A program made the position numbers and the translations under genes. Under the pieces are notes generated by a model that ran no database searches, had not been told where the DNA came from, and worked only from the letters and a program-made list of their open reading frames with translations. Below are positions 7,439-18,711 of a DNA stretch of 64,000 bases, in pieces; position 1 is the stretch's first letter, and each line of letters begins with the position of its first letter. Origin of the DNA: an uncultured Eggerthellaceae bacterium (GTDB taxonomy: Bacteria > Actinomycetota > Coriobacteriia > Coriobacteriales > Eggerthellaceae). Location of the stretch: the NCBI GenBank assembly GCA_944321455.1, contig CALULI010000006.1, forward strand, positions 434,001 through 498,000. Direction: 5' to 3'.

Positions 7439-8743
7439 ATGATATTCACGCGACATACTATCTATCCCGTTCTTGAGATTGTTTTTTTGTGCCTGGCGCT
7501 TATTTGTGGCTGCGGTCTTGGCTGGGCCATGTTTTCACCAAGGCAAGACATGCTGTTGATTGTCATTTTTGGTGGTCTGTTCACGCTGTTCTTGCTCATT
7601 ACCATTGCTCTTATGCTTGATCCTGACCGCGTTCGTGCACGCCAGTCGGATTCGGTGTTAAGCGTTGCGGCAACTACTTTGTCTGCTATGCAGGATGGCT
7701 TTGGCCAGGAAAGCGCAACGACCATTTGCAAGGCGCTCTACGAAGCATCGGCCGCATCGGCTGTTGCCATTACTGATACCGAAGTGGTGCTGGGCTACTA
7801 CGGTGCAGGTTATGAGCAGCTGGGTCATTTGGGGGGCGACATTCGCACGGCGGCTACCAAGCGCACGCTGGCTGACGGCAAAACGCGCGTGTTGTCCACG
7901 CAGGAAGAAGTGGGCTTGCCCGCACCAGTGCGCTCCATCAAGGCGGCTATCATTGTTCCGCTGAAGGTCAGCGGCGTTGTTCGCGGCACGCTGAAGTTCT
8001 ATTTCGCCCGCGCATCGCGCATCAACGAAACGCAGGTTTCCGTTGCTGAAGGTTTCGGCTTGCTGCTGTCCACCCAGATTGCTTCCACGGAGCTGGAAGA
8101 ACAAAAGAAGCTGGCAACCAGCATGGAGCTTAAAGCGCTGCAAAGCCAGATTAATCCTCACTTCTTGTTCAACATCATCAACACCATTGCTTCTCTGGTT
8201 CGCACGGATCCTCAGAAGGCACGCGAAATGCTCAGAGAGTTCGCCGTGTTCTACCGTCAGACGCTGGAAAACAGCTCCGACCTTATTACGCTTGCCCGCG
8301 AAGTAGAGCAGACACGCCGCTATTTACTGCTTGAGCAAGCGCGCTTTGGCGAAGAGCGCTTGGCGGTTGAGACAGCCATTGATGATGACGTGCTAAGCAT
8401 GAGTGTTCCAGCGTTTATGATTCAGCCTTTGGTTGAAAATTCTGTTAAGCACGCTATGCCTGCCGAAGGAAAGCTGACTATTAGCATCACCGCTGAAACT
8501 AAAGGTGATGATGTCTACATCTACGTTTCTGATGACGGCATTGGCATGTCGGAAGAAGCGCTTCATTCCATCATGCATCCGCAGTCACAGACGGGCTTAG
8601 GTATTGCCGTTAAAAATGTCAACGACCGTCTGCGCGGCTACTATGGTGATGAATCCACCATGAAAATCTGGAGCAAGCTGGGCGAAGGAACCAAGGTAAC
8701 GCTGTTCTTAAAGGGATGCGCTACGCTTTCACAAGAAGGCTAA
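7439..8743 (+). CDS. LytS-type sensor histidine kinase with GAF domain
   Basis: 434 aa. Two N-terminal membrane spans (about 9-30 and 37-61) are followed by a GAF-like sensor region (about 75-215) and the HisKA_5/LytS phospho-acceptor motif LQSQINPHFLFNIINT, with His241 as the expected phosphorylated residue. The HATPase domain shows PLVENSVKHA (N box), DDGIGM (G1) and GLGIAVKNVNDRL (G2). The matching LytTR response regulator follows 227 bp downstream under its own promoters. Such pairs sense membrane state, peptides or metabolites; this one's signal is unknown. Confidence 0.9.
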   Translation: MIFTRHTIYPVLEIVFLCLALICGCGLGWAMFSPRQDMLLIVIFGGLFTLFLLITIALMLDPDRVRARQSDSVLSVAATTLSAMQDGFGQESATTICKALYEASAASAVAITDTEVVLGYYGAGYEQLGHLGGDIRTAATKRTLADGKTRVLSTQEEVGLPAPVRSIKAAIIVPLKVSGVVRGTLKFYFARASRINETQVSVAEGFGLLLSTQIASTELEEQKKLATSMELKALQSQINPHFLFNIINTIASLVRTDPQKAREMLREFAVFYRQTLENSSDLITLAREVEQTRRYLLLEQARFGEERLAVETAIDDDVLSMSVPAFMIQPLVENSVKHAMPAEGKLTISITAETKGDDVYIYVSDDGIGMSEEALHSIMHPQSQTGLGIAVKNVNDRLRGYYGDESTMKIWSKLGEGTKVTLFLKGCATLSQEG

Positions 8744-8793
8744 GCGTAAAATAAGCATCGCGTAAAGAAAAACAAAACACAGATGATAGACAA

Positions 8794-8823
8794 ACCCGTA
8801 TGTATAAACAATTACATATGGGT
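8794..8823. promoter_or_regulatory. Inverted repeat between the kinase and regulator genes
   Basis: ACCCGTATGTA (8794-8804) and TACATATGGGT (8813-8823) pair over 11 bp with one G-U, loop of 8. It is followed by A, not T, on the plus strand, so it is unlikely to terminate the kinase transcript. It directly overlaps the candidate -35 region of the TATAAT at 8833, so it could be an operator. Confidence 0.45.
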
Positions 8824-8832
8824 AAAAAATGG

Positions 8833-8932
8833 TATAATCCCAGTCACAATAGCGCGGGAGTATCGAGACTTGTTATAGGGTACTCAGCCTATTGACAAAA
8901 ATAAAAGTAACCCATCAAAAGTGGGTTATAAT
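8833..8932 (+). promoter_or_regulatory. Tandem promoters of the LytTR regulator gene
   Basis: Two perfect TATAAT boxes lie at 8833-8838 and 8927-8932. A perfect TTGACA lies at 8892-8897 but is 29 bp from the second box, too far for a normal sigma-A promoter. The interval contains the inverted repeat TAACCCA (8908-8914) / TGGGTTA (8922-8928), which overlaps the -10 box. Transcription from the second box would give a leader of about 32 nt. Confidence 0.55.
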
Positions 8933-8970
8933 CAACCTAAATGTGCCGAAACTAAGACGAGGAGGCAGTG

Positions 8971-9684
8971 TTGCTTAAAGCTATTATTGTTGACGATGAA
9001 GCTCCAGCACGCTCCGAGCTCCGCTTTTTGTTAAGCGAACTGAATCAAACTGAAGTTGTCGCTGAGGCCGCAAGCGTTCGTGAGGCAATTGAAAAGTTGA
9101 AGGAATATCCGTGCGATGTGATGTTCCTTGATATCAACATGCCTGAAGCAACGGGTTTGCAGTTAGCTGAAGCGCTTCAACATCTTAAATATCCACCAGC
9201 TGTTGTGTTCGTAACGGCGTATAGCGAATTTGCTCTTGATGCTTTTAAGGTCAACGCTATTGACTACTTGGTCAAGCCCGTTGAAACTGAGCGTCTTGCT
9301 CAGGCTTTGGCCCGCGTCCATGAGCACGTTCTGCTTCATGCGAAAGCTCAGCGCGCTGAGCGTATTCCTGTTGAAAAGGGTGGCAAGAAAATCCTTATCA
9401 ACATTGACCAGATTCGTTATGTCATGGCGCGTGATGATTACGCCTATCTGCAAACAGCAACAGATCGCTTCTTTTCTACGGTAAGCTTGGCTCAGCTGGA
9501 AAAGACCTTGGACGGTCACGGTTTCTTCCGCGTACATCGCGGTTATCTGGTTAACCTGCAGTTGGTTCGCGAAGTTGAATCGCAGTCAGGTGGTACGCTG
9601 CTTTTGACCCTTGATGGCGTGGAGGAAAAAATCCCTGTTTCGCGTCGTCGCGTTTCTTCCCTGAAGAAAGCATTGGGCCTGTAA
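8971..9684 (+). CDS. LytTR-family response regulator
   Basis: 237 aa. TTG 8971 is preferred over GTG 8968 because the GGAGG at 8961-8965 is only 2 nt from the GTG but 5 nt from the TTG. The receiver domain (1-120) has the acidic pair DD8-9, phospho-acceptor Asp54 in MFLDINMP, Thr in FVTAYSE and Lys in YLVKPVE. The LytTR DNA-binding domain (about 131-237) has the FFRVHRGYLVNL motif. It is the partner of the upstream LytS-type kinase. Confidence 0.92.
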   Translation: MLKAIIVDDEAPARSELRFLLSELNQTEVVAEAASVREAIEKLKEYPCDVMFLDINMPEATGLQLAEALQHLKYPPAVVFVTAYSEFALDAFKVNAIDYLVKPVETERLAQALARVHEHVLLHAKAQRAERIPVEKGGKKILINIDQIRYVMARDDYAYLQTATDRFFSTVSLAQLEKTLDGHGFFRVHRGYLVNLQLVREVESQSGGTLLLTLDGVEEKIPVSRRRVSSLKKALGL

Positions 9685-10937: not shown

Positions 10938-11077
10938 CGCCTGGTGCCTAACGCAGAGCGCTGTGCCGCGCGGGTTCTAGGCGCTTTGCTTCGCTAGTTT
11001 TAGAAGCTGTGCGGCGTTCTCCTTTGACACAGTGCCGCGCTGGTCTTACAACCTTTCCTCGAGAAAAGGGGGACTCC

Positions 11078-13072
11078 GTGTCCAAAACATTTTTGATGGG
11101 CAATGAAGCCTTTGCTCATGCTGCGCTCGAAGCGGGCGTGAAGGTGTGTGCGGGATATCCTGGTACGCCTTCATCCGAAGTGTTAGAGACTATTGCTAAA
11201 GCCCATGCCCAAGGCAAGGCAGAAGGCGTTCATGTTGAGTGGTCCACCAACGAAAAGGCTGCTCTTGAAATGCTGGCGGGCGCCGCATATTCGGGTGCGC
11301 GCACGCTGTTTACCTGCAAGCAGGTGGGCTTAAACGTAGCAAGTGACGCGCTCATGTCACTAAACTACGTTGGTGTTGAAGGAGGCACGGTGCTGTTTGT
11401 GGCCGATGATCCTGGTCCTATTTCATCTCAGACCGAACAGGACACGCGACGCTTTGCTTCGTTTGCGAAGGTTCCCGTGTTTGATCCTGCAACGCCTGAA
11501 CAGGGATGCGCCATGATCAAGACGGCCTATGACGTGTCGGAGCGCTACCATACGCCCGTGATTGTGCGCCCCACCACCCGCGTGTGCCACGCATCCACCT
11601 TTATTGATATTGAAGACACCACGCAGGCAAAGCCTGCAAAGGGGTTTGAAAAAGATAGCAAGTGGGTCATTTTCCCTAAGCGCTCCTTTGAGGCTCATGG
11701 CGAAATTAACGATCGCTTGCCAAAGATTGCCGCTGATTTTTCGGCCTGCGAGTTTAATCCGATTGAGGTTGTTTCGTTCGGTCAGGATGCCGAAGCTGAC
11801 AGCACTGCGTCGCGCGATGTGCCTGTGCAAGTGTCTGCCCAAGAACCTGCATCTGACCAAGTACCAACAATTGGTGTTGTTGCAGGCGGCATTTCGTATG
11901 CGTATGTGCGCGAAGCATTGCGCATCATTGAGCAGCTGGCACGTGAGGCTCACGTTGCGCTGTCTGCCGTTAAACTGATGCAGGTTGGAACGCCCTATCC
12001 GTTCCCCGCACAGCGCGCTGAAGAATTCGTTCAGGGTCTCGAAGCCATTATGGTGTTTGAGGAACTTGATCATGTTTTGGAAGATGAATTCCTCAAGCTG
12101 GCAGGTCAAATTCACGCCCCCTATACCGTGCATGGTAAATTGACGGGCGAGACCACCGCTCGTGGCGAAAATACCACTGATGATATTGCAGCGCAGCTGA
12201 TTGCGTTTATGCAGCTGCCGCTTTCGCTTGAAGGACGCGGCATGGTGGCGCAAACGCCTATTCCTGCGCGACCTCCCGTGTTATGTGCGGGCTGTCCTCA
12301 TCGCGGATCGTTTATTGCGGTCAAGAATGCCCTGGCCGCAATGGGCAAGAAGCACGAAGGCGTGTACTGCGGCGATATTGGTTGCTACACGCTGGGCAAT
12401 GCCAAGCCGCTCTCAACCGTTGATACGTGCTTGTGCATGGGCGCGGGCATCACGATTGCCCAAGGGATCACTGCAGTTGATCCGAATCGCAAAGCCGTGG
12501 CGTTTGTGGGCGATTCCACCTTTTTCGCCAGCGGCATGACGGGTGTTGCTAATGCGGTATACAACGGCCATGACATTACCTTGGTGGTGCTGGACAACGC
12601 CACCACTGCCATGACGGGTTCGCAACCCCATCCTGGTACGGGCGTCACGTTGGTGGGGGAGCATCGCAAGCCTCTTTCGATTGATGCTGTTCTGCAGGCG
12701 CTGGGGGTAGAAAAAATCATTCACGCCAACCCGCTTAAAGCACACGATGCCATTGAAGCGGCACGCGAAGCGATTGGATTCGAAGGACCTTCGGCGGTCA
12801 TTTACGAATCTCCGTGCACCGCGCTGATTGCGCCCCAAGCACCTGTTGAATTCGACGAAGACGCGTGTACGCACTGCACGAAATGCGTCAGCAGATTAGG
12901 TTGTCCTGCTCTTTCGTGGGATCGCGAAAACAGGCACCCTCTCATTGATACATCTCTGTGCACAGGCTGTGGTTTGTGCGCCGAATTATGCAGCGACGGC
13001 GCACTTGCTTGTCCAACACAGGCCGACTCAACAGATCAGTCCTGTCCATCATCTAACGCTCAGGAGGCATAA
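11078..13072 (+). CDS. iorA: Indolepyruvate ferredoxin oxidoreductase, alpha subunit
   Basis: 664 aa from GTG 11078, with a purine-rich SD (AAAGGGGGA) just upstream. The N-terminal pyrimidine domain reads AGYPGTPSSEV. The central TPP-binding core has CAGCPHRGSF, GDIGCYTLG and GDSTFFASGMTG. The C-terminus carries a 2x[4Fe-4S] ferredoxin domain, whose second cluster motif CTGCGLCAELC is complete. With IorB it converts aryl pyruvates from Trp, Phe and Tyr to arylacetyl-CoA, reducing ferredoxin. It starts the iorA-iorB-paaK operon (gaps of 3 and 14 bp). Confidence 0.95.
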   Translation: MSKTFLMGNEAFAHAALEAGVKVCAGYPGTPSSEVLETIAKAHAQGKAEGVHVEWSTNEKAALEMLAGAAYSGARTLFTCKQVGLNVASDALMSLNYVGVEGGTVLFVADDPGPISSQTEQDTRRFASFAKVPVFDPATPEQGCAMIKTAYDVSERYHTPVIVRPTTRVCHASTFIDIEDTTQAKPAKGFEKDSKWVIFPKRSFEAHGEINDRLPKIAADFSACEFNPIEVVSFGQDAEADSTASRDVPVQVSAQEPASDQVPTIGVVAGGISYAYVREALRIIEQLAREAHVALSAVKLMQVGTPYPFPAQRAEEFVQGLEAIMVFEELDHVLEDEFLKLAGQIHAPYTVHGKLTGETTARGENTTDDIAAQLIAFMQLPLSLEGRGMVAQTPIPARPPVLCAGCPHRGSFIAVKNALAAMGKKHEGVYCGDIGCYTLGNAKPLSTVDTCLCMGAGITIAQGITAVDPNRKAVAFVGDSTFFASGMTGVANAVYNGHDITLVVLDNATTAMTGSQPHPGTGVTLVGEHRKPLSIDAVLQALGVEKIIHANPLKAHDAIEAAREAIGFEGPSAVIYESPCTALIAPQAPVEFDEDACTHCTKCVSRLGCPALSWDRENRHPLIDTSLCTGCGLCAELCSDGALACPTQADSTDQSCPSSNAQEA

Positions 13073-13075
13073 ATC

Positions 13076-13711
13076 ATGATTAGTGTTTCAATAGCGGGTA
13101 TTGGTGGCCAGGGAAACGTTTTGGCCGCCAAGATTTTGGCACAGGCAGCAAAGACGAAGGGCTGGCAGGTGCGCACGGCAGAAACCATTGGCATGGCGCA
13201 ACGCGGGGGCGATGTTATTTCGCATGTTCGCATGGGAAACAATCACGAAGAAGTGTATGCACCCCTTCCTGCTAAGGGTTCGGTCGATGTGGTTATTGCG
13301 CTTGAGCCAGGCGAAGGTGCGCGTGCGCTTCCCTACCTTAAGGAAAACGGCTTGTTGGTGGTGCCGCAGTCAGGCATTGCCCCAAGCACCGCTGATCTGA
13401 AAGCAGACCCTTATAATCCCGCAGCCGTCATTGATGCGCTTGCCGCACAAGGGGTGGCCGTGTCGGTTGTGGATGACCAGGCACTCTGTGATGCATTGGG
13501 TACTCGCAAGGCGCTCAACATCATGATGCTTGCGCATGCCATCAACGTGGTGAATGCCGACCCTCGTTTTGAGCACAATGAATTGCGCAACGCCATTAGC
13601 ATGGATGAGCTACGCGAGGCTATTGTGGCATGTGTAAAAGAAAAGTTTGTAACAATGAATTTAACGGCGGTTGATTTAGTGCTACAGAGTGCTAAAGTGT
13701 ACAAAATCTAG
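13076..13711 (+). CDS. iorB: Indolepyruvate ferredoxin oxidoreductase, beta subunit
   Basis: 211 aa, starting 3 bp after iorA with SD CAGGAGG in the iorA end. It shows the gamma-domain signature IAGIGGQGNVLAAKILAQAA and ETIGMAQRGGDVISHVR, which bind CoA and contact the alpha subunit. It completes the arylpyruvate oxidoreductase. Confidence 0.95.
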   Translation: MISVSIAGIGGQGNVLAAKILAQAAKTKGWQVRTAETIGMAQRGGDVISHVRMGNNHEEVYAPLPAKGSVDVVIALEPGEGARALPYLKENGLLVVPQSGIAPSTADLKADPYNPAAVIDALAAQGVAVSVVDDQALCDALGTRKALNIMMLAHAINVVNADPRFEHNELRNAISMDELREAIVACVKEKFVTMNLTAVDLVLQSAKVYKI

Positions 13712-13725
13712 GTAAGGACTACACC

Positions 13726-14961
13726 GTGGAAATGAAGTCAGAACAGCTTGAGCTCATTAAAGAGCAATTCAAAACCTTGAAGGATCGCTCGCCGTTTTAT
13801 GCCAAGAAATTCGATGGCATTGATTTAAGCGATGTTCAATCGCAGGCAGATTTCGAAAAGCTGCCCTTTTCCGAAAAGGCTGACTTGCGTGAGGTTTACC
13901 CCTTAGGTATCCAAGCTGTTCCCGATGAAGAGGTTGTTCGCATTCATTCCTCTTCAGGTACCACGGGCACGCCCGTTATTATTCCGTATACCCAAAAAGA
14001 CGTTGAGGACTGGGCCATTCAGTTCGCACGCTGCTATGAGGTCGCGGGTATCACCAATACCGACCGCATCCAGATTACCCCTGGCTATGGTCTGTGGACA
14101 GCAGGCATTGGTTTTCAGCTGGGCGCAGAACGCTTAGGCGCTATGGCTATTCCTATGGGTCCTGGCAATACCGAAAAGCAGTTGCGTTTCATGCATGACA
14201 TTAAATCGACGGTCCTGTGCGCAACCAGCTCCTATGCTCTTCTTCTGGCAGAAGAAATTAGCAAGCGCGGCATTCGCGATGAACTCTATCTGCGCAAGGG
14301 TGTTATTGGTTCTGAGCGTTGGGGCGAAAAGATGCGTCATCGCATTGAACATGAGCTGGGCATTGAGATTTTTGACATTTATGGCCTGACCGAAGTGTAC
14401 GGTCCTGGCATTGGTATTTCGTGCCACGAACATGCAGGCATGCACATTTGGGACGACTATGTCTACATTGAAGTGGTTAACCCCAAGACGGGCGAAATTC
14501 TTCCCGATGGTGAAATTGGCGAGCTGGTTTTGACCACGTTGCGCAAGGAAGGCGCACCGCTGATTCGTTATCGTACCCATGACTTGACGCGCATTATTCC
14601 TGGCGAATGTGCCTGCGGCTTGCATCATCCACGCATTGATACGCTGGTTGGTCGCACGGATGATATGTTCAAGGTCAAGGGTGTTAACATGTTCCCTGCT
14701 CAGGTTGAAGAAGTTATTGCCATCACGTCAGGTACGTCAAGCGAATATCAGGTCATGATCGAACACATCATGGGCAAGGACGTTTTGACCGTGCTCTTTG
14801 AAACTGATCTGACAGGTGAAGCGCGCGAACATGCCGAACGCGAACTGGAAATGATCTTCAAGGCTAAGATTGGCTGCACGCCTGAGGCTAAGGCCGTGCC
14901 TATTGGAGAGCTTCCTCGTTCAGAAAAGAAGACGCAGCGCATTTTCGACAGCCGCTACTAG
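13726..14961 (+). CDS. paaK: Phenylacetate-CoA ligase-like enzyme
   Basis: 411 aa, GTG 13726 (an in-frame ATG lies two codons later). The adenylate-forming motifs are RIHSSSGTTGTPVI (P-loop), DIYGLTEVYGPGI, RYRTHDLTRI and VGRTDDMFKVKGVN. Next to iorAB the enzyme probably runs backwards: arylacetyl-CoA made by IorAB is cleaved to the aryl acid with ATP formation, the final step of aromatic amino acid fermentation. That direction is inference from context. Confidence 0.9.
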   Translation: MEMKSEQLELIKEQFKTLKDRSPFYAKKFDGIDLSDVQSQADFEKLPFSEKADLREVYPLGIQAVPDEEVVRIHSSSGTTGTPVIIPYTQKDVEDWAIQFARCYEVAGITNTDRIQITPGYGLWTAGIGFQLGAERLGAMAIPMGPGNTEKQLRFMHDIKSTVLCATSSYALLLAEEISKRGIRDELYLRKGVIGSERWGEKMRHRIEHELGIEIFDIYGLTEVYGPGIGISCHEHAGMHIWDDYVYIEVVNPKTGEILPDGEIGELVLTTLRKEGAPLIRYRTHDLTRIIPGECACGLHHPRIDTLVGRTDDMFKVKGVNMFPAQVEEVIAITSGTSSEYQVMIEHIMGKDVLTVLFETDLTGEAREHAERELEMIFKAKIGCTPEAKAVPIGELPRSEKKTQRIFDSRY

Positions 14962-15046: not shown

Positions 15047-15070
15047 TGGTTTGGCCGCTTGGCCAAACCA
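15047..15070. promoter_or_regulatory. Perfect 10-bp inverted repeat between paaK and the leader-peptide promoter
   Basis: TGGTTTGGCC (15047-15056), loop GCTT, GGCCAAACCA (15061-15070). No T-run follows, so an operator or a Rho-type 3' end is more likely than an intrinsic terminator. It lies 15 bp upstream of the -35 box at 15086. The 100 bp before it are rich in related GGCCGCTT/GGGCGAGCAG pieces. Confidence 0.55.
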
Positions 15071-15085
15071 ATGTCTCGATTGGCT

Positions 15086-15113
15086 TTGACCGAGCGTTTT
15101 ATTCTGGTAAAGT
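15086..15113 (+). promoter_or_regulatory. Promoter of the tyrosine leader transcript
   Basis: TTGACC (15086-15091), 16-bp spacer, TAAAGT (15108-15113). The predicted start point falls at about 15120, directly at the ATG 15121, so the leader peptide would be translated from a leaderless mRNA. Confidence 0.6.
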
Positions 15114-15120
15114 ATCACGC

Positions 15121-15321
15121 ATGCAAAACGAAACGCAACATACCACTATGGTTTTACGTGCTACCCGCGCGGTAGCATCGTGTGCGGCACATGCCTTTAG
15201 GCACGTGCGCGTTTCGTGCGATTCTTGCGCTCTTATGACGCAGCACCTGGCACAGGGCTGTATGACACAGGTCACTAGCGCGTCTTCGATTCCACAACAG
15301 TATTATTATCGATATCTTTAG
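15121..15321 (+). CDS. Candidate leader peptide ending in a tyrosine run (66 aa)
   Basis: ATG 15121 to TAG 15319. The peptide ends in QQYYYRYL: three Tyr codons in a row (TAT at 15301, 15304 and 15307), then Arg, another Tyr (15313) and Leu. The stop codon overlaps the 5' arm of a terminator hairpin. There is no SD. The gene has no other recognisable features. Its position between a promoter and a terminator in front of a sodium:solute symporter gene is the layout of an amino-acid attenuator. If ribosomes pause at the Tyr codons, they would cover the terminator's 5' arm and let transcription continue. The shorter in-frame ATG at 15235 is another possible start. Confidence 0.5.
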   Translation: MQNETQHTTMVLRATRAVASCAAHAFRHVRVSCDSCALMTQHLAQGCMTQVTSASSIPQQYYYRYL

Positions 15322-15349
15322 CACACGGGTTTTTGCTCGGTGCTTTTTT
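15320..15349 (+). terminator. Attenuator-type terminator before the symporter gene
   Basis: AGCAC-a-CGGG (15320-15329), loop TTTTTG, CTCG-GTGCT (15336-15344), then TTTTT. The stem is 9 bp with a bulged A and one G-U pair. It lies 84 bp before the symporter start and begins 5 bases after the last Tyr codon of the leader peptide. Confidence 0.65.
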
Positions 15350-15432
15350 ATTGCCCCGAGGCAACTGGTCGTGTGCGCCTCCATAGTTTTTTCTCTTGAT
15401 TTCTGTTTGATAGCGATAGCAAGGAACATCTC

Positions 15433-17091: not shown

Positions 17092-18711
17092 ATGGAGGGT
17101 TTCGAGCTCATAAGTACCGGAGCTTGGTCCATTGTGCCACCGCTTTTGGCCCTGGTGCTTGCACTGGTGACTAAAGAAGTATACTCATCGCTTCTTGCGG
17201 GTGTGTTTTCAGGCCTGATCATTTATGAATTTGTTCTTGAAGGACCAGGTGTCAGTCAGTTCGTTACTGCGTTTACGCTTCTGCCGTCGCTGATGGCAGA
17301 GCAAATCATGAGTAACGGCGCGCTGATTTTGTTCTTGGCGCTCTTAGGTGCGTTGGTTGTGGTCATCGCTGTTGCGGGCGGTTCGCGTGCCTATGCTGAA
17401 TTTGCGGCACGCCACATCAAGAGCGCTCGCATGGCTTCCATCATGACTGCGGTATTGGGCATCATCATCTTTGTTGATGACTACTTCAACTGTCTGACGG
17501 TTGGTGCGGTTATGCGTCCTATCACGGACCGCTTCCGCATTAGTCATGAAAAGCTGGCGTGGATCATTGACTCGACGGCAGCGCCTGTCTGCATTATTGC
17601 CCCTGTTTCGTCTTGGGCCGTTGCTGTTGGCGGTTATTTAGGAGAAGACGGCTTCAATACCTTCATTGCTTCTATTCCTTATAATCTCTATGCACTGTTG
17701 GCAATTCTGATGGTCTTCGCTGTTTGCTTAATGAATGTTGATTTCGGTCCTATGCTCAAGGCGCAAAAGGAACACGAAGCTCAGCTTGAAAAGAAGGCCG
17801 AAAAGGATGCAGCTAAAAACATCCATGGTGATCTTCCTTTGGATGCAGGTGTTGAAACGGTTGTTGCTGAAACGGACGACCTGGTTAGCGCCTCTAAAAC
17901 CATGGAGCAGTTCAAGGGCATGCCTGTATCCCCTAAGGGCAAAGTCTATGACCTGGTAGTGCCTATCTTAATTTTGATCATCTTTTCCATCATTGGTATG
18001 GCATACGTGGGCGGCTTCTTCGAAGGTGTCGACTTTGCAACTGCTGTTGGTGAAGATCCTATTACCGGTTTGTGCATTGGTGCGCTGATTGCGCTTACCT
18101 GCGCAGCGTGTATTTTCTTGCCCCGAAAGCTGACCACGTTGTCGGTCTTTGTTGAGGCTGTTTCTGAAGGCGTTCGCTCCATGGTAAGCGCCATCATGAT
18201 TCTGGTTTTGGCATGGTGTTTGGGTGGTGCATGCCGCTACATGCTGGGTACGGGCGAATTTGTTGCCAACTTCTTGACCAGCGTTGGCTTTGAGCTTGCC
18301 TTGCTTCCTGTGGTTATTTTTATTACGTCAGCCTTCATTGGTTTTGCAATGGGTACGTCGTGGGGCACCATCGCGTTGGTTCTGCCCATTGTTTTGGGTA
18401 TTTTCCCCGAAGGAGATCCGCTCTTCTTGGTAACCATTGGTGCTACCTTGGCAGGTGCGGTATATGGCGACCACACATCGCCCATTTCGGACACCACCAT
18501 CTTGTCTTCGGCAGGTGCCGAATGTAATCACTTGCGTCACGTTTCTACACAGTTGCCTTATGCAACGGTGGTCGCTGCAATCTGTGTTGTGGGTTATCTG
18601 ATCGCAGGTCTTACGGGCACGCCATGGATCTCACTTATTGGTGGCGCCATTGTTTTGTTGGCAATACTGGTGTTCTTCCGCATCAAGAATAAAGCAGCTA
18701 TAACGCAATAA
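17092..18711 (+). CDS. NhaC-family Na+/H+ antiporter-like protein
   Basis: 539 aa, about 12 membrane segments. Family hallmarks include WSIVPPLLALVLALVTKEVY at the N-terminus, FVDDYFNCLTVGAVMRPITD and GTSWGTIALVLPI, and GDHTSPISDTTILSS. A charged cytoplasmic loop (about 220-285) splits the two halves. TATAAT at 17050-17055 gives it its own promoter. It may supply sodium exchange for the upstream symporter, which is inference. Its 3' end overlaps fthC tail to tail by 14 bp. Confidence 0.9.
   Translation: MEGFELISTGAWSIVPPLLALVLALVTKEVYSSLLAGVFSGLIIYEFVLEGPGVSQFVTAFTLLPSLMAEQIMSNGALILFLALLGALVVVIAVAGGSRAYAEFAARHIKSARMASIMTAVLGIIIFVDDYFNCLTVGAVMRPITDRFRISHEKLAWIIDSTAAPVCIIAPVSSWAVAVGGYLGEDGFNTFIASIPYNLYALLAILMVFAVCLMNVDFGPMLKAQKEHEAQLEKKAEKDAAKNIHGDLPLDAGVETVVAETDDLVSASKTMEQFKGMPVSPKGKVYDLVVPILILIIFSIIGMAYVGGFFEGVDFATAVGEDPITGLCIGALIALTCAACIFLPRKLTTLSVFVEAVSEGVRSMVSAIMILVLAWCLGGACRYMLGTGEFVANFLTSVGFELALLPVVIFITSAFIGFAMGTSWGTIALVLPIVLGIFPEGDPLFLVTIGATLAGAVYGDHTSPISDTTILSSAGAECNHLRHVSTQLPYATVVAAICVVGYLIAGLTGTPWISLIGGAIVLLAILVFFRIKNKAAITQ

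Follow-up and report, generated by a model that had tools for sequence, protein, structure and literature searches.

The nearest precedent for the leader device described here is AroR of Corynebacterium glutamicum, which contains Phe-Tyr-Phe, precedes aroF and responds to Phe, not to Tyr (excerpts of PMC11802643 and PMC4046766). According to these excerpts, AroR is likewise an actinobacterial leader peptide in which ribosome stalling at aromatic codons controls an aromatic gene, and one relative in the present set (genome G084) also has its leader before a DAHP synthase gene. AroR is reported to read Phe and precedes aroF, whereas the leaders found here have Tyr near their end and precede a symporter gene; a CGA-TAY register as seen here and a pairing of the leader with the Shine-Dalgarno (SD) region as predicted here do not feature in the excerpted AroR description. 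A leader peptide lacking a ribosome binding site is also described for ilvBNC of C. glutamicum (Morbach et al. 2000, cited in PMC4046766), but it has branched-chain codons and belongs to a biosynthetic operon.

With trpL and pheL of E. coli and trpL of C. glutamicum the present leaders share control codons that are read by the ribosome beside a terminator. Those systems use a classical upstream antiterminator pairing, whereas in the present leaders the terminator arm would be masked by the ribosome directly, and the alternative partner for pairing is located past the U-tract. In translational attenuators of the ermC type a stalled ribosome frees a sequestered SD sequence, the signal being a drug. 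A comparable release can be inferred for relatives whose leaders end in YSYRY, with the difference that in those leaders the control codons would themselves form the anti-SD sequence. TnaC and SpeFL resemble the present case in having conserved C-terminal residues near the stop codon and a ribosome position that controls termination; here, by contrast, the stop codon and the residue before it vary, the stop shifts by a codon and a synonymous codon is conserved. A Tyr T-box would read tRNA-Tyr charging, as this device would, but the window gave no T-box match.

In a survey from 2005, Actinobacteria showed no conserved RNA elements ahead of their tyrosine or phenylalanine operons (PMC1262725), and 'tyrosine attenuator' and like terms were not found in the literature searched, from which the content of subscription journals may differ. 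The device is apparently undescribed. A first-pass annotation of this DNA had considered tyrosine attenuators in Actinobacteria not established; AroR, which responds to Phe, is a close actinobacterial precedent (excerpts of PMC11802643).

The symporter locus and its leader ORF

The window, i.e. the whole stretch of 64,000 nucleotides analysed, belongs to an uncultured Eggerthellaceae bacterium with a genome of 1.55 Mb. Its features are collected in Table 1. The closest named relatives of the symporter in a sequence search include those of Adlercreutzia and Ellagibacter (Eggerthellaceae); among proteins of solved structure, sodium/glucose cotransporters are nearest to it in sequence. A base-by-base check placed the ATG of the leader at 15121, 7 nt past the −10 element TGGTAAAGT, and recovered the 66-aa frame ending in QQYYYRYL (15121–15321) that the annotation had proposed. 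The 3' end of this ORF reads CAA CAG TAT TAT TAT CGA TAT CTT TAG. The terminator hairpin begins at 15320, inside the TAG stop codon, and is followed by TTTTTT at 15344–15349; since the last Tyr codon ends at 15315, the arm starts on the fifth base after it, in agreement with the 5 bases originally claimed.

Table 1. Coordinates of features at the symporter locus (positions in the window)
Feature	Position	Strand	Basis
Upstream operon iorA, iorB, paaK	11009..14961	+	Pfam and NCBIfam matches
iorA	11009–13072	+	
iorB	13076–13711	+	
paaK, phenylacetate-CoA ligase-like AMP-forming ligase, C-terminus IFDSRY	13726–14961	+	
−35 element TTGACC, spacer 16	15086..15091	+	5/6 matches
Extended −10 element TGGTAAAGT	15105..15113	+	base-by-base check; kept in relatives
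Leaderless leader ORF, 66 codons, MQNETQHTTM...IPQQYYYRYL, stop TAG	15121..15321	+	frame under selection in relatives
Three Tyr codons TAT TAT TAT, too far 5' to mask the arm	15301..15309	+	footprint arithmetic
Slow Arg codon CGA	15310..15312	+	97/100 leaders
Last Tyr codon, fixed register TAY + 5 nt + GCAC	15313..15315	+	comparison of leaders
Intrinsic terminator, hairpin AGCACaCGGG / CTCGGTGCT, then TTTTTT	15320..15349	+	scan, folding, relatives
Arm A (GCACACG), partner of the terminator 3' arm or of arm C	15321..15327	+	
Inner part of the distal arm (CCGAGGCAA), pairs with 15333–15340 in the long alternative hairpin	15356..15364	+	
Arm C (CGTGTGC) of the long alternative hairpin A:C, kept in all types	15370..15376	+	
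Symporter Shine-Dalgarno AAGGAAC	15421..15427	+	complementarity to leader weak here, p = 0.17
Sodium:solute symporter, SSF family, 512 aa	15433..16971	+	PF00474, E 4e-56

In consensus scans the promoter match in the window was not above chance (6 found, 4.8 expected); for terminators 12 were found against 6.8 expected. The promoter being non-significant by this measure, comparison with relatives was used. Among 100 distinct leaders, a TGNTARAGT-like extended −10 element is present in 81, followed after 6–9 nt (6–7 nt in 78 of the 81) by a start codon, ATG in 80 cases and GTG in one, in frame with the Tyr end. This bears out the proposed promoter, whose predicted start point falls on the ATG, the window having the same layout. 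Most other examined leaders possess an SD-led start or consist of a paaK tail. The latter applies to three genomes from two genera (L085, L088, L092), in which the 3' end of paaK, encoding IFDNRY or IFDSRY and followed by the hairpin, replaces a separate leader.

Leader length varies among relatives from 27 to 117 codons. In pairs of the same length, 1101, 881 and 1788 substitutions fall on codon positions 1, 2 and 3, respectively, and codons with a single change are synonymous or non-synonymous at 903:700 in frame, as opposed to 311:1253 and 224:1203 in the shifted frames; the pairs are not independent, but the contrast between frames is nonetheless strong. By this pattern of substitution the leaderless ORF evolves as coding sequence, i.e. 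it is translated. A conserved upstream sensor segment was not found in the leaders across genera. Two sequence features within leaders were observed. A Gly-His (or Ala/Glu/Arg-His) pair is located near residues 6–8 in 69 of the 81 relatives' leaders, and a repeat of about 13 residues, (C/R)A(V/L)MS(E/Q)HxAQ(K/Q)(C/S), is present in 1–5 copies in several genera (e.g. L127, L089, L125), apparently spread by in-frame duplication; in the window it lies at about 15228–15260 (CALMTQHLAQGC).

Other observations concern the surroundings. Immediately 5' of the promoter, at 15048–15071, is a hairpin TGGTTTGGCC-gctt-GGCCAAACCA without a U-tract. In several relatives a dyad CTTTA-N6-TAAAG overlies the leader −10 element (about 15096–15113 in the window); its exact form was found in 4 of 16 genomes (G003, G015, G027, G057), once in each and always at the leader, and it could be an operator. 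Further upstream in the window (7439–9684) a histidine kinase and a BtsR-like LytTR response regulator form a pair, and the gene next after the symporter (17092–18711) belongs to a Na+/H+ antiporter family.

Conservation of the device and its control codons

An orthologous symporter occurs in 120 of 138 family genomes. Positions 15060–15360, run as a DNA query against these 138 genomes, matched 47, nearly all only from about 15301 on, that is from the Tyr codons through the terminator. The pattern TAYCGATAYNNNTAGCRC was present in 68 of the 138, once each save for two exceptions, with a nearly empty reversed control; outside the family, a few genomes from elsewhere in the order carry it too, some of them before the symporter. 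A search before orthologous symporters had been proposed in the annotation, and a covariance model of the Tyr end and hairpin, built from 28 terminator-type leaders, matched 104 of the 138 genomes, which represent 34 of 48 genera; three genomes have two copies and the others a single one, almost all directly 5' of the symporter gene. Such an occurrence at orthologous symporters across relatives is far beyond chance and settles what the promoter match alone could not. On the strength of these genome comparisons, the leader device is real, conserved, and precedes the sodium symporter in most gut Eggerthellaceae.

No Rfam family reached the gathering score in the window, where a T-box or other aptamer in the leader would have contradicted the initial view; two matches at E ≤ 10 were far below threshold and neither was a T-box. 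Twenty orthologous loci from other phyla were equally devoid of a T-box or other known RNA.

Tyr accounts for 42.7% of the last seven leader residues and for 1.1% elsewhere, an enrichment of about 40-fold, compared with only about 2.5-fold for Arg. Typical ends are YYYRYL, YYSYRYL, YYFRYC, QFEFRYQ and FDNRY, and 13 of the 81 leaders have one Tyr codon only in their last eight, Phe occupying the other Tyr places. In 97 of 100 leaders, CGA encodes the Arg that precedes the last Tyr, although the search admitted any CGN there; CGA makes up 4.7% of the Arg codons in 71 symporter genes. Because the search anchor demanded the last Tyr, a separate promoter-and-ORF search without a Tyr requirement was carried out, and the leaders it returned also end in RY(x), except in genus g14 (L008, L161, L167), which retains the leaderless ORF and terminator while the Tyr end is gone (...SQVISGA). 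The three paaK ends that replace a leader have CGA as their Arg codon, whereas other paaK ends have CGC, CGG, CGT or AGG with one exception (L155); a further CGA entry among the listed paaK ends, L097, is a separate leader ORF and no paaK end. The distance from the last Tyr codon to the arm GCAC is constant at 5 nt. The stop, which may be TAA, TAG or TGA, is the next codon or the one after, and the residue before it is variable (L, C, Q, W, F, I, V, H, R) or absent. In a his leader assay CGA proved slow, slowing ribosomes and causing de-attenuation there (PMC4046918).

Across the leaders compared, the invariant feature is hence the CGA-TAY pair, not the Tyr run. The run had been put forward as the control element; the Tyr end is indeed conserved, but some genera make do with a single Tyr codon (QFEFRYQ). 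A +1 or −1 frameshift at CGA, carrying the ribosome through the hairpin, was considered and rejected, both frames being about equally open (median 35 and 39 codons).

Terminator, alternative hairpin and predicted Shine-Dalgarno pairing

In isolation the window hairpin folds at about −13 kcal/mol (z = −3.3). The A:B terminator hairpin with a U-tract is found in 46 leaders, the window included, at a mean of −12.9 kcal/mol. A ribosome usually protects mRNA to about 12 nt past the first base of its A-site codon. By this arithmetic, once the last Tyr codon occupies the A site, the ribosome would cover TAGCACA, about 6 nt of the arm, and covering 6 nt in this way weakens the terminator in the 46 leaders from a mean of −12.9 to −4.9 kcal/mol. 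With the usual footprint, a ribosome at any of the first three Tyr codons of the window leaves the arm free. The idea that a ribosome on the Tyr codons masks the arm thus applies to the last Tyr (15313–15315) and fails for the first three. Since the last-Tyr position alone masks the arm, this codon, with CGA in the P site, would be the decisive one, in agreement with the invariant part of the leader.

Arm A has a second conserved partner, arm C, located 29–68 nt downstream and beyond the U-tract, so that A:C can form only after the U-tract has been made. All 8 positions of A:C pair in 95 of 99 leaders and in 3% of shuffles; this set had been pre-filtered for a 6-nt match, a filter that 70 of 76 unfiltered strict matches also pass; of the six that do not, at least three (L232/L243, L240, L241) lie elsewhere than at a symporter. 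Two-sided changes such as GCACATG/CATGTGC, GCGCACA/TGTGCGC and GCACGCG/CGCGTGC maintain the pairing.

Leaders ending in YSYRY occur in 40 genomes and lack a U-tract in 38. Their codons, TATTCCTATCGATA, come close to being the reverse complement of the symporter SD region (CGATAGGAATA). Predicted leader/SD pairing averages 7.7 bp in this type, as against 0.05 in 15 leaders of the FEF type, each with a U-tract. The duplex of YSY leaders with the SD region amounts to −11.8 kcal/mol, compared with −7.25 for windows of 470 other genes and −8.0 for synonymous leaders, and it reaches p ≤ 0.05 in 20 of 40 YSY leaders and in 0 of 15 FEF leaders; in the window genome leader-SD pairing is not significant (p = 0.17). 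The sequence CGATAGGAA was rejected as the usual SD sequence of these genomes: before ATG it is rare there, with 0–5 occurrences per genome and none in the 470 other-gene windows. Within the YSY type, covariation specific to single genomes was not seen (own pairs 20.5, swapped pairs 20.0). The case for leader/SD pairing therefore rests on type specificity and rarity, and shared ancestry is a partial alternative.

To judge from this complementarity, where the U-tract is absent the device seems in most relatives to control translation, by leader/SD pairing, and not transcription. The transcriptional output first proposed would apply to the 46 leaders with a terminator and, it seems, not to this majority. 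Tentatively, the CGA-Tyr pair may be a widespread two-codon sensor in fixed register with the hairpin that has swapped its outputs, either a terminator or the codons themselves as anti-SD, with the tail of paaK acting as leader in two genera; we consider this a serious possibility, if one falling somewhat short of an even chance.

Proposed signal and direction of control

Sequence comparison supplies the parts of the device: the leaderless ORF, its translated frame, the Tyr end, the CGA-TAY register and the terminator, together with leader/SD complementarity in a subset. Assembled, they probably constitute a ribosome-mediated attenuator that reads the supply of tyrosine, possibly of aromatic amino acids in general. 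Transcription would start at or next to the ATG, and a ribosome would initiate at once behind RNA polymerase. When tyrosine is plentiful, it would reach the stop codon and leave, and the freed arm 15320–15329 would form the terminator, keeping the symporter off. Under a shortage of charged tRNA-Tyr, the ribosome, which CGA would already have delayed, would stall at the last Tyr codon in its A site and cover the 5' arm; the terminator would fail and the symporter would be made. In the YSYRY relatives the same codons would pair with the symporter SD sequence, which the stalled ribosome would free. Which signal is read, the direction (starvation meaning ON) and the role of the A:C hairpin are what we infer.

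That low charged tRNA-Tyr switches the symporter ON is the preferred reading, plausible but unproven. G084 has a second leader copy (L336, G084:C236) before an AroFGH-type DAHP synthase, the first enzyme of aromatic synthesis, and this favours 'ON when starved', as a single case from an assembly with 5% estimated contamination. DAHP synthase genes of the other relatives examined lack such a leader, and a general leader before these genes was dismissed as only one genome has it.

The iorAB-paaK operon is upstream of the symporter, as claimed in the annotation, and could serve the fermentation of aromatic amino acids assumed there. It need not be fermentative: in Bacteroides, an IOR adjoining an AMP-forming arylacetate-CoA ligase may serve synthesis (PMC13285125). 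By analogy, the operon may run toward aromatic amino acid synthesis, which would suit induction by starvation better. Of 65 loci with enough flank, 21 have paaK 5' of the leader in the same orientation; IorA, present in 136 of 138 genomes, is uninformative as a marker.

Several points speak against attenuation. A stall at the first three Tyr codons leaves the arm free, and severe starvation might thus favour termination. The model assigns no clear role to the A:C hairpin, which is located past the U-tract, and the 13 leaders (out of 81) with a single Tyr codon in their last eight fit it poorly. The window genome has a TyrA-type gene, as have 112 of the 138 family genomes; it is no obvious Tyr auxotroph, and Tyr auxotrophy was discarded as the reason for the device.

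The main rival is an arrest peptide of the TnaC/SpeFL kind. A chain aromatic-x-aromatic-Arg-Tyr would arrest the ribosome at or near the last Tyr when free tyrosine or an aromatic metabolite is abundant; the arrested ribosome would cover the arm or free the SD sequence, and the symporter would be ON in excess. Aromatic and other residues do take turns ahead of the invariant Arg-Tyr, and where Tyr is missing it is mostly Phe that stands in. Tryptophan and ornithine are sensed through ribosome arrest by TnaC and SpeFL (PMC8429421), and an ior-paaK operon can be catabolic. We nevertheless regard arrest as unlikely: the free or absent residue before the stop and the use of TAG, TGA and TAA alike are unlike fixed-stop arrest, the upstream segment that would act as sensor is not conserved across genera, the conserved synonymous codon CGA is not predicted by a peptide model, and one leader copy precedes a biosynthetic gene.

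A further rival is kinetic coupling. With ample tyrosine the ribosome would stay near RNA polymerase and, pausing on CGA or the stop, cover the arm as the U-tract is made (symporter ON), while Tyr or Phe shortage would hold it upstream, where the terminator forms (OFF). The footprint reckoned for the first three Tyr codons of the window leader, the slow CGA located exactly at the arm (PMC4046918) and a leaderless start that keeps the ribosome near the polymerase all suit this scheme. Its sign is opposite to that in the SD-pairing relatives, where a ribosome anywhere on the Tyr codons would release the SD sequence, and opposite to that expected of the DAHP synthase copy, and FEF leaders retain just the one Tyr that masks; we judge it improbable.

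CGA varies about as little as the last Tyr, and the leader might accordingly report arginyl-tRNA supply or general translation speed instead of tyrosine. The far stronger enrichment of Tyr than of Arg in the last seven residues makes this quite improbable, as do the neighbours and the second regulated gene, which belong to aromatic metabolism. An ordinary terminator between two transcription units, the ORF being unused, can be dismissed almost entirely, for although the element follows paaK in several genomes, it has its own promoter and coding-type evolution and keeps Tyr end, register and CGA across genera.

If attenuation by tyrosine supply is true, this would be a tyrosine-reading attenuator in Actinobacteria, conserved in most human and animal gut Eggerthellaceae, with a leaderless leader peptide that has two interchangeable outputs. 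The invariant CGA would represent a natural slow codon fixed by selection for ribosome positioning. A family-wide uncharacterised symporter would be tied to aromatic amino acid supply, which would bear on how Eggerthellaceae handle tyrosine, phenylacetate and related compounds.
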